A stretch of DNA of 64,000 bases from Thermincola carboxydiphila. Its GTDB lineage: Bacteria; Bacillota; Thermincolia; Thermincolales; UBA2595. The stretch covers positions 50,375-114,374 of the forward strand of contig JAENZX010000002.1 of assembly GCA_016841045.1 (NCBI GenBank), read 5' to 3'. The position numbers and the translations under genes were made by a program. Shown one piece after another: positions 14,569 to 18,810 of this stretch (the first letter of the stretch is position 1; each line of letters begins with the position of its first letter). The notes below the pieces were generated by a model. It was given only the letters and a program-made list of their open reading frames with translations, ran no database searches and had not been told where the DNA came from.

Positions 14569-17007
14569 TTACATCTTTGCACTGCTGATATTTTCAAGCG
14601 GCAAATTTGCTCTTTTTGCTGACGATTTCTTTCGGCCGGATCGCAGCAGCACCATTGTCATCGTTATTCCTGTAAGGGTTAATCCGAACAGGCCGGCAAT
14701 AGTCCGGGTGGCAGTCAGGGCAGGGATATGAAGGGATATAGCCTCGTTCCCTTGAGGTCGGTATGATAAATCAAGCATGACTGACGCAATTCCGGGAATA
14801 AAGTGCAGTTGATAAATTACGTAGCCTGAGAGCACCAGTGGAATCAGGGCGAAGGTCAGTTTGATTTTTAAGGATGCAGCCTTTGTCTTGAATGGCTTAG
14901 CCAAATACCAGGTAATCGTACCGGCCACCAAAGCGGCACCCCAGAAGACCAGGCTGAACCAGAGCCGCCATTTATCTAAAGGCCATACATTGTAAAGGGG
15001 TTCGAAATACATAATTGGCAGAAGGACACCCAGTGCGACACCAATGAAAACAGTAAAACCCTGATTAACCCTGACCAGGTGCCAGACTTCTCTGGCAGGA
15101 ATCCTTAAGTTGAGTTTTACCGCACCGTTTGGGCAGTTGCGGATACAATTCAGGCACAACTTGCAGGCGATATTATTATCTAAATACGGAACGTGCTGGG
15201 ACATGGGACAGCCTGAGGTGTGAGAGGTTCCCCTGTAGCATTCAAAAGTAGTGCACTTATTAAGGCAAACCTCTACATCAGACCTTACCTCAAGCATTCC
15301 TCCCACCGAGGCCATACCGACAAATCCGCCAAGGGGGCAGAGGTGTCGGCACCAGGTGTGCCTGGTAAAAATAATACCGGTTATACTTGCTGCGGCGGTG
15401 ATGAAAATCAGCCATAGGGCTGTGAGTACGGGACTGCTCCTCATTCCGCTCATTGCTTCCACCCAAAAAACCATGAGAAACAAAAAGCTGATAAAGATAA
15501 AATCATACTTTTTCAGTAGATCGGGAACCGGTCGGTTCAGATGAAAAATCTTCTGCACCCGGTCCATGGTAAAGGAGAAAGGACAAATACTGCACCAAAC
15601 CCGACCCAAGGTAGGGGAGAAAATTGTCAGAGCAGGCCACCAAAATCCCCATACTACTGCAAACATAATACGGGTTGTAAGTGAAGCAGGCGCGAAAAGT
15701 AGAAAGTATGTTATAACGAAGAAAATTAAAGCCGACAGACGGCGCAGCCATAAATGGAAATTCCCCTGTTTTATAACCTTTTCCACCCAGGAGAAGGATA
15801 GCAGGTCAAGACTACGGCCTGTTTTTTCGGCTGTAGGGCCGAAGAAGACGTGCTCTAGGCCGATTGTGTTATCTTCAGCCAGGTAAAAAGCCCTCTCAAC
15901 GACCTGAATAAGCTCAGTAACGTTGCCCTGCCGGTAGTGGTGGGTCAGCAGCAGCTTAACGGCATCCTTGCTGAGAGAGGGTGGGGTGCGATTATTCTCG
16001 TCAGCCAGTTTTTTTAGTAATCCCAGGGCAAGCACAGGAATATCCCGTTTACGTTCACGTAAGGGAGTGAATTTAAAGGTGTGTGGGAAACAATCCTTCA
16101 ACTCAGTTTTCAGGCGCTGCGGCAGTGATTCCGGTTCGCCCAACAGACTCCCGATGATACGGCATTGAGCATCCCCGGCCTGAATGGCTTGGGCTAGTCT
16201 TTGCTGGGCCCTTTGGGAAATAAGGTTTATATCCCTTATAAACAGTGTTCCACCCTCGGCCAGCTCCAACAAGCCGCTGCCCTTAAGGCTTTGGGTTTCA
16301 AACATCAGGTCGCCCCATTGCTGGTCAATTTGACGACCGTCTACAACTACAAAGGGGGCTTCTTCACCGAACTGACGCTCATGCAGCTGCCAAGCCAGCA
16401 TCTGTCGTCCGGTACCCCGCTCGCCGATTATGAGAAGGTGTTCACCGGTCTTGCTTAAATCAGCCAGCGCGGTTTGAATTTCTCTTGTAGTTTTGGCGCT
16501 TCCCCACAAACCATAAAATTTTTGCTTAAACTGGTTGAGCTGCAGACCAGAACGTAAAAACTCCTTGTGTTTAGACTCCCATAAATCTTTATTAACGTTA
16601 TTCACCATACGGGATAACTTTTCGGCAAAACTCCGGTAAAGATGCGGCCAGCGAATGAGCATGAAGGCAAAATGCTCAGCATCCATTGCCAGAAGAGTGC
16701 AGTCCTTGGTACAGCGGATGGCGACCGGGGAAGGTTTACCCGTAAAGAGAGATATTTCTCCAAAGGAGTTGCCCGGCCGGAATGTGCTAATTGAGTGGGG
16801 ATTCCGTCCCTCCTCAGCAGCCAGGACTTCAGCTTCACCTTCTACTAATACATAGAACCAATTCCGTTCTTGGCCAAGTATAACAATATCAGCACCTGCC
16901 GGGTGGGTTTCCCACTCGAAGCCCTCGGCCAGTTCTGTTAAGTCTTCGTTATTTAATTCGGCAAGCAGTTTTACCTTGGAGAGATAATAAACTTTATCTT
17001 TTAGCAT
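14569..17007 (-). CDS. Cyclic-nucleotide-binding/AAA+/membrane polyferredoxin fusion
   Basis: An 812-residue three-part protein. Residues 10-130 are a Crp-type cyclic-nucleotide-binding domain (FGEISLFTGKPSPVAIRC in the phosphate-binding cassette). Residues 165-385 resemble a sigma-54 activator AAA+ domain but are degenerate: Walker A GERGTGR has Arg for Lys, Walker B is TLFIRDI instead of LDE, the GAFTGA loop is missing and GNVREL is GNVTEL. Residues 420-790 are a multi-pass NapH/NosR-like membrane region with CSIC (472-475), CRHLCP (553-558), Cys581/585/590/600 and a CKLCLNCIRNCP ferredoxin motif (615-626). There is no DNA-binding domain. It probably moves electrons under nucleotide control. 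A cyclase-like gene lies 76 bp upstream on the same strand. Confidence 0.9.
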   Translation of the reverse strand: MLKDKVYYLSKVKLLAELNNEDLTELAEGFEWETHPAGADIVILGQERNWFYVLVEGEAEVLAAEEGRNPHSISTFRPGNSFGEISLFTGKPSPVAIRCTKDCTLLAMDAEHFAFMLIRWPHLYRSFAEKLSRMVNNVNKDLWESKHKEFLRSGLQLNQFKQKFYGLWGSAKTTREIQTALADLSKTGEHLLIIGERGTGRQMLAWQLHERQFGEEAPFVVVDGRQIDQQWGDLMFETQSLKGSGLLELAEGGTLFIRDINLISQRAQQRLAQAIQAGDAQCRIIGSLLGEPESLPQRLKTELKDCFPHTFKFTPLRERKRDIPVLALGLLKKLADENNRTPPSLSKDAVKLLLTHHYRQGNVTELIQVVERAFYLAEDNTIGLEHVFFGPTAEKTGRSLDLLSFSWVEKVIKQGNFHLWLRRLSALIFFVITYFLLFAPASLTTRIMFAVVWGFWWPALTIFSPTLGRVWCSICPFSFTMDRVQKIFHLNRPVPDLLKKYDFIFISFLFLMVFWVEAMSGMRSSPVLTALWLIFITAAASITGIIFTRHTWCRHLCPLGGFVGMASVGGMLEVRSDVEVCLNKCTTFECYRGTSHTSGCPMSQHVPYLDNNIACKLCLNCIRNCPNGAVKLNLRIPAREVWHLVRVNQGFTVFIGVALGVLLPIMYFEPLYNVWPLDKWRLWFSLVFWGAALVAGTITWYLAKPFKTKAASLKIKLTFALIPLVLSGYVIYQLHFIPGIASVMLDLSYRPQGNEAISLHIPALTATRTIAGLFGLTLTGITMTMVLLRSGRKKSSAKRANLPLENISSAKM

Positions 17008-17083
17008 GGTCTTTTTCCTTTCACTGAACCCTGTTTATAATCTCCGGGTAAAAAGTTTTAGGCTTTTGGCTTCCGAAACCTTC

Positions 17084-17920
17084 TTAATCAAATCTGCATC
17101 TTTGTAAATCTTCCCCGCAAATGTCAGCTTCACATTGGATGGCTAGCTCCAGGAAATTAATTTCGTCAGCCTCAAAAGTTTCATAAAACTGTATTGTTGA
17201 CAGTAACTTTGATGCGATAGCTGGAGTAATGGGCTGTACCTTTAAAAAGTTTTTTATGAGATCATTTTTATCAAGTTTTTTTCTAAGCCAGTTTCGAATC
17301 CAGTTCACACAGAAAGTATCGTATTTTCCATAATTCTTTATATCTATAGAATGTGGTTTTATAACACCCTTTGAAAAAAAGGTGTTATTATCACATTGCA
17401 GCAGCGCTGACGGAGTAAATATCACTCCAATCCAATCAAACATTTCATACCAGGAGGCAACCTCGTCTACAGCAGGTCCAAGCATAATGTTTTCAACGGA
17501 GGTTAATTCTCCATAGCAAGTGGCGCCTCTTACAGGGATTTGATGAATAATTGATTCACTAATTACTCTCGACGCAACAGTAGCCTGATATTCAAGCGCT
17601 TTATTACACTCACCATAGGTTACTATTGCTATTGTATCAGAGATGCTGATTATTTCTGTATCTAGATCTTTAAAGCGGGATTTTTTTAAACAGGGAAATT
17701 CCCGATTAGTAATTCGTTCCGCTCGTGTTGTTGTGATCTCTATTATCTTTAGTAGATCTCTGATGGCATTGTGCTTTCTTTGCCATATCCCTTTCCAGCC
17801 TAGAATATCGAGCAGGGTTATAGCTCCCCAATTCATTTCTTTTTCTTTTTGAACAAATATTTCTTTTTCCATAAGACCCCACCTAAGAAAATTATCATTA
17901 GCAGTTGGATTCGAGGTCAT
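17084..17920 (-). CDS. Nucleotide-cyclase-like protein, unassigned
   Basis: A 278-residue soluble protein I do not recognise by name. Its order of motifs resembles a class III nucleotide cyclase fold: ITLLDILGWKG with Asp38, SISDTIAIV with Asp95 (positions of the two metal-binding Asp), then VRGATCYGEL and LGPAVDEVASWYE. That is a reading by eye and needs a profile search. Starts at ATG 17920 (weak ribosome site) and ATG 17872 (AGGTGGGG) are both possible; the second gives 262 residues and still includes both Asp. It precedes the cyclic-nucleotide-binding polyferredoxin gene on the same strand and may supply its ligand. Alternatively it is one of the many inactive cyclase-like hypothetical proteins. 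Confidence 0.7.
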   Translation of the reverse strand: MTSNPTANDNFLRWGLMEKEIFVQKEKEMNWGAITLLDILGWKGIWQRKHNAIRDLLKIIEITTTRAERITNREFPCLKKSRFKDLDTEIISISDTIAIVTYGECNKALEYQATVASRVISESIIHQIPVRGATCYGELTSVENIMLGPAVDEVASWYEMFDWIGVIFTPSALLQCDNNTFFSKGVIKPHSIDIKNYGKYDTFCVNWIRNWLRKKLDKNDLIKNFLKVQPITPAIASKLLSTIQFYETFEADEINFLELAIQCEADICGEDLQRCRFD

Positions 17921-18266: not shown

Positions 18267-18428
18267 ATGAATAAGTGGAGATGTGGAGTATGTGGCTATA
18301 TGCTGGAGGCCGATATACCACCTGATGTATGCCCGTCGTGTAAGCAAAAGTGTGAGTTTATAGATGATAACTGTTACACACCTGATTGTGGCTGCTCTAA
18401 ATGTGTAGAAGAAAAAGGAGGAAATTAA
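18267..18428 (+). CDS. Rubredoxin-like protein (53 aa)
   Basis: A 53-residue protein beginning MNKWRCGVCGYM. It has the rubredoxin-type pair CGVCGY and CPSCKQK, expected to hold one iron with four cysteines, then a second cysteine group in CYTPDCGCSKC that ordinary rubredoxins lack. GGAAGGAGG lies 14 to 22 bases upstream of ATG 18267. The stop is one base before the start of the superoxide reductase gene, so the pair is an operon. It is the likely electron donor to superoxide reductase; what the extra cysteines bind is unknown. Confidence 0.85.
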   Translation: MNKWRCGVCGYMLEADIPPDVCPSCKQKCEFIDDNCYTPDCGCSKCVEEKGGN

Positions 18429-18429
18429 A

Positions 18430-18810
18430 ATGACAAGTCTAAACGAAGTTTACAAATGTAATGTGTGTGGAAATATTGTCGAAATGGTTCACTCTGGCAA
18501 AGGACAGTTAGTATGCTGTGGACAGCCTATGGAACTGAAAAAAGCCAATGACCAGGATGCCAGTCTCGAAAAACATGTCCCGGTGATTGAAGTTACGGAA
18601 AATGGAATAAAGGTTGCAGTAGGAGCAGTCCTGCATCCCATGGAGGACAAGCACTACATAGAATGGATTGAAGTTATTGCAGATGGCAGGATAGAACGAA
18701 AATTCCTGAAACCTGGTGACGAACCCACAGCTGAGTTTTCCAAGGTTGGGGATAGTATAGAGGTTAGAGCATATTGTAATTTGCATGGTTTGTGGAAGGC
18801 AATTCTATAA
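18430..18810 (+). CDS. Desulfoferrodoxin-type superoxide reductase
   Basis: A 126-residue 2Fe superoxide reductase, which reduces superoxide to peroxide without releasing oxygen. The N-terminal desulforedoxin domain has CNVCG and a CC pair (residues 10-36), intact for center I. The catalytic center II ligands are visible in EKHVPV, HPMEDKHYIEWIE and YCNLHG (His4-Cys). Length is standard. Co-transcribed with the rubredoxin-like gene, as expected for an anaerobe's oxygen defence. Confidence 0.96.
   Translation: MTSLNEVYKCNVCGNIVEMVHSGKGQLVCCGQPMELKKANDQDASLEKHVPVIEVTENGIKVAVGAVLHPMEDKHYIEWIEVIADGRIERKFLKPGDEPTAEFSKVGDSIEVRAYCNLHGLWKAIL

Follow-up and report, generated by a model that had tools for sequence, protein, structure and literature searches.

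Do the two neighboring genes listed in Table 1 form a signaling pair, one making a cyclic nucleotide and the other sensing it, or do they simply lie side by side? They occupy part of a window of 64,000 nucleotides of Thermincola carboxydiphila DNA, the whole stretch analyzed here. An earlier note had proposed that the 278-aa protein is a cyclase and the 812-aa protein, which begins with a cyclic nucleotide-binding (CNB) domain, its membrane effector, recalling the logic of Pycsar. The layout is as the note described it: both minus-strand ORFs are open from end to end, and the gap between them is 76 bp. The genes are co-directional and no terminator was seen in the gap, so read-through or co-transcription is possible. 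Their base compositions differ, with a GC content of 36.8% for the cyclase-fold gene vs. 48.3% for the polyferredoxin-fusion gene, and a GC3 of 31% vs. 51%.

Table 1. Features of the two-gene locus (positions are those of the window).
Feature	Position	Strand	Basis or remark
CNB - degenerate sigma-54-type AAA - NapH/NosR-like polyferredoxin fusion, 812 aa	14569..17007	-	Pfam
C-X2-C-X2-C-X3-CP [4Fe-4S]-type motif, residues 615-626	15130..15165	-	invariant in 12 homologues
Fer4_5 (NapH/NosR-type), residues 450-494	15526..15660	-	Pfam
Degenerate AAA+ core and lid, residues 169-387	15847..16503	-	Pfam and alignment
cNMP_binding, residues 35-116	16660..16905	-	Pfam; phosphate-binding Arg absent (FGEISLFTGKPSPVAI)
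76-bp intergenic gap	17008..17083	-	no terminator-like or promoter-like site (consensus scan only)
Class III cyclase-fold protein, 278 aa, no named family	17084..17920	-	ORF, AlphaFold2 model, Foldseek/VIA
Asp95 codon, second putative metal Asp (SISDTIAI)	17636..17638	-	invariant in 31 relatives
Asp38 codon, first putative metal Asp (LLDILGWKG)	17807..17809	-	invariant in 31 relatives

The 278-aa protein has no matches in Pfam, NCBIfam or PADLOC, and phmmer and hmmsearch comparisons with PDB sequences found no cyclase, so that its fold assignment rests on predicted structure. An AlphaFold2 model built from an alignment of its relatives has a mean pLDDT of 88.7; the best 50 Foldseek matches to this model are all nucleotide cyclases (E down to 7e-6), and its structural Z against nucleotide cyclases in VIA reaches 14.1 over 167 residues. 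Taken together, these three results make a class III fold well supported for the modeled protein, at low identity to the solved cyclases in the structure comparison. The best 50 VIA rows include no Pycsar structure, which is not evidence of difference, and a viral structure library gave just distant matches to giant-virus cyclase domains.

Asp38 and Asp95, which the earlier note had placed as in class III cyclases, are indeed at those positions and do not vary among the relatives aligned. Residue offsets in the structural match place Asp38 at the position taken as the first metal aspartate in Rv1264 and CyaC. Also invariant in the 31 aligned relatives are G41-W42, G44, S94, R131-G132, G137, G148, A150, D152, A155, W157, E159, G165, P170, and W207, giving a family signature of D-[VI]-[LI]-G-W-K-G ... 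S-D-T ... R-G-A ... G-P-A-[VI]-D-E-x-A-x-W-x-E. The predicted fold and two metal-type aspartates are thus common to this protein and the class III nucleotide cyclases (PF00211 superfamily; Rv1264, CyaC, soluble guanylate cyclase), but it has no PF00211 match, its family has its own GWKG / GPAVDExASW signature, and the transition-state Asn and Arg of the class III motif VNxAARL read, by motif, as Asp152 and a variable Ser156.

Is such a protein still an enzyme? Since the canonical Asn and Arg are missing, cyclase activity is predicted here as roughly an even bet. The substitutions mean that the protein could be inactive or a ligand-binding fold, and one possibility is a class III fold that has lost catalysis and serves for binding or sensing; the low identity of the protein to solved cyclases would fit this as well. 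We nevertheless regard a dead fold as unlikely: even very distant relatives keep both metal aspartates and a block of further core residues unchanged, which speaks for chemistry that has been retained. The most likely reading is that the protein acts as a two-metal cyclase dependent on Asp38 and Asp95, presumably assembled from two subunits and making a cyclic mononucleotide.

The relatives on which this argument draws are sparsely distributed. An initial search of 398 genomes of the phylum found them in three genomes besides the window's (plus one spurious match), and repeating it with a profile gave the same four, the window's own included; the gene was found in none of the eight other members of the window's taxonomic family examined. 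A single-sequence scan of a genome contig collection found no relatives; a profile made from a small alignment found 33 loci in genome contigs and three in viral contigs, spread over many phyla and including Bacteroidota, Lentisphaerota, Verrucomicrobiota, Myxococcota, and archaea. A phage collection yielded none, and a plasmid collection one, fused to TPR repeats. The 278-aa protein is therefore best described as belonging to a family of class III cyclase-fold proteins that lacks annotation and occurs sparsely but across many phyla, and the window's copy was probably acquired horizontally. A weak match within the phylum (L014), whose sequence reads as that of a PgsA-like membrane protein, was discarded. 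A looser relative (L070) matched neither PDB nor PADLOC and provided no bridge to PycC, the Pycsar cyclase. At L002 2816-4600 (Fusobacterium) and L073 5017-6696 (viral contig), a domain of this family stands at the C-terminus of a TPR-repeat protein. The L002 record (NZ_CP084075.1, 2.1 Mb), labeled as a plasmid, looks like a mislabeled Fusobacterium chromosome.

What, then, do these genes usually accompany? The family's real recurrent neighbor is a PF21648 protein, not a polyferredoxin fusion. Of 34 tree rows, 22 have a protein of approximately 220 aa encoded immediately upstream of the cyclase-fold gene, in one case as a fusion; the remaining rows are solo genes (10) or TPR fusions (2). At L058, one 445-aa ORF encodes partner and cyclase together. 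The integron-cassette domain PF21648 is matched by every one of the 18 partners aligned, and a model of the partner (pLDDT 93.6) matches the structure of Vch_cass3 (PDB 3FY6). The domain is common to the M1E1E6-like integron cassette proteins, to which Vch_cass3 belongs, but the partner also has a helical N-terminal half, to which the domain is attached. A literature search, which reached few subscription papers, found nothing on a cyclase/integron-cassette module. The novelty here is the unannotated cyclase-fold family together with this partner, which lies outside the window: the window's gene falls in a partnerless solo clade of eight tree rows (98/97), and a search of its genome, run with no positive control, found no PF21648 partner.

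Where the partner is present, the module is sometimes found in defense loci. In L045, L048, L049, and L058 it is flanked by a type I specificity subunit and a restriction subunit (the L049 restriction subunit being assigned only by its cluster with L048 and L058), in L055 it is downstream of a type I specificity subunit, and in L023 it is between BREX PglZ/BrxL and Gabija GajA/GajB. Single loci have methyltransferase, OLD-like, or caspase-like neighbors, and downstream of the solo-clade member at L040, a further two ORFs along, is a PDC-S06 gene. Among hand-picked neighbors, strong defense matches (E 1e-30 or better) occur in about 9–10 of 37 loci. This placement is recurrent and lies partly within one subclade; no statistical enrichment is claimed, since a crude control set of polyferredoxin neighborhoods also contained restriction genes, in 2–3 of 13 loci.

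These associations bear on two readings of the window. One is that its cyclase is a stripped-down member of the PF21648-cyclase defense module, protecting against phage by way of an effector elsewhere in the genome. The prevalence of the two-gene or fused module as the family's main form, its insertion into type I RM operons and, in L023, between BREX and Gabija genes, and the PDC-S06 gene near L040 all point in that direction, but the window has no recognizable defense operon, its genome yielded no partner in the search described above, and the control set had its own share of restriction genes; on balance we doubt it. Scattered single matches were all that the window scan gave, and they are of kinds also given by housekeeping ATPases and helicases. 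The other, which we put forward only tentatively and think improbable as a whole, is that the family is a new nucleotide-signaling module, in which cyclase and integron-cassette partner act as an alarm or regulator in restriction-modification and BREX loci, the window having the solo form with an unlinked effector.

The 812-aa neighbor is unusual in a different way. The earlier reading of it, as a protein with a Crp-type nucleotide-binding start and a membrane iron-sulfur carrier end, stands as far as domain order is concerned, with Pfam identifying the first and Fer4_5 and a Cys cluster the second; it does not extend to the working parts of the CNB and AAA+ domains. In the phosphate-binding cassette, the window protein has FGEISLFTGKPSPVAI vs. 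FGELALIYGTPRAATV in PKA: Gly83-Glu84 is present, and the Arg is absent in all 12 fusion homologues. CNB receptors, PycTIR and CRP-type domains among them, are reported to conserve the Gly, the Glu and this Arg (PMC11224242). The AAA+ segment (sigma-54-type AAA, 169-279; AAA lid, 317-387) has a poor Walker A, GERGTGRQ, and FIRDI where FLDEI would be expected; across the fusion homologues the Walker B Asp is replaced and the GAFTGA loop missing in every case. The GAFTGA region is shortened, and a polyferredoxin takes the place of the HTH of a sigma-54 activator. With the Arg absent, Walker A and B degenerate and GAFTGA missing, the sequence sets the protein apart from standard sigma-54 activators and from standard cyclic-nucleotide receptors alike. 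It shares the Fer4_5 segment and ferredoxin Cys clusters with NapH/NosR-type membrane polyferredoxins, but adds N-terminal CNB-like and degenerate AAA+ domains to them. It is also a reminder that a Pfam CNB match need not mean cyclic-nucleotide binding. Nothing on such fusions was found in the literature, again in a search that reached few subscription papers.

Are the two genes found together elsewhere? Fusion homologues were found in nine other genomes (29–61% identity), none with an adjoining cyclase-fold gene, and the window's own genome has a second copy (L025 9029-11434, 49% identity), also without one. The homologues' neighborhoods vary; in two genomes the fusion is downstream of an acetate-kinase-like gene. 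Conversely, the fusion was absent from all three other cyclase-bearing genomes tested, one of which gave ordinary AAA matches. Within the window's taxonomic family, a search for cyclases of the PF00211 class alone found none in the members examined, and the fusion-bearing genomes have neither that class nor a cyclase of the 278-aa type. The comparison included a single genome of the window's genus, its own. The conserved pairing for which the earlier note had recommended a survey is thus missing from every other genome found with either gene, an absence that the note had itself named as refuting its proposal.

The resemblance to Pycsar is correspondingly limited. PycC, a uridylate/cytidylate cyclase, has a class III fold and two metal aspartates (PMC11224242), as predicted for the 278-aa protein, whose gene likewise adjoins one with a CNB-type domain. 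However, the aspartates are 57 residues apart here vs. 44 in PycC, and where the base pocket of AnPycC and EaPycC has a Phe at -2 of the first Asp and a Lys, Arg or Gln near the second, the 278-aa protein has Leu36, Ile91, and Ile93. The neighbor, keeping the Gly-Glu of the Gly-Glu-Arg set and not the Arg, is not a receptor of the PycTIR/PycTM type. PADLOC cyclase models matched none of 31 family members, in a set that may not include PycC. The protein resembles Pycsar in its class III fold and is not assigned as a member, given the lack of a conserved CNB effector and the differing base-pocket residues; the Pycsar-like logic suggested earlier probably does not hold for this locus.

The 812-aa gene is probably not the partner of the 278-aa gene, and their adjacency is probably due to chance: chance adjacency after horizontal acquisition is the simplest account of the GC3 mismatch and of the absence of the pairing elsewhere. 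The explanation we prefer, and consider reasonably probable, is that an orphan, stand-alone cyclase-fold gene, probably of horizontal origin, has come by chance to adjoin an independent polyferredoxin gene with a non-receptor CNB domain. Any cyclic mononucleotide made would then act on an effector encoded elsewhere in the genome, and the adjoining CNB-like domain would not be a cyclic-nucleotide receptor of known type. That the two genes are instead a lineage-specific pair, the CNB-AAA region sensing the cyclase's product and gating membrane electron flow, is very improbable: a shared strand, a short gap with no terminator detected, a class III fold, and a neighboring Pfam cNMP_binding match would all suit it, but not the lack of pairing in any other genome with either gene, the loss in 12 of 12 homologues of an Arg that PycTIR and CRP-type domains conserve (PMC11224242), the second fusion copy with no cyclase beside it, or the strong GC3 difference.

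An attractive but probably wrong pairing is thereby replaced by a testable association of cyclase and PF21648 protein. If active, this cyclase family would equip type I restriction or BREX loci with a nucleotide signal, and would give the PF21648 integron-cassette fold its first role.

Elsewhere in the window, a rubredoxin-like ORF of approximately 53 codons that is absent from the gene list (18268-18429, plus strand) lies directly upstream of a desulfoferrodoxin gene (18430-18810).
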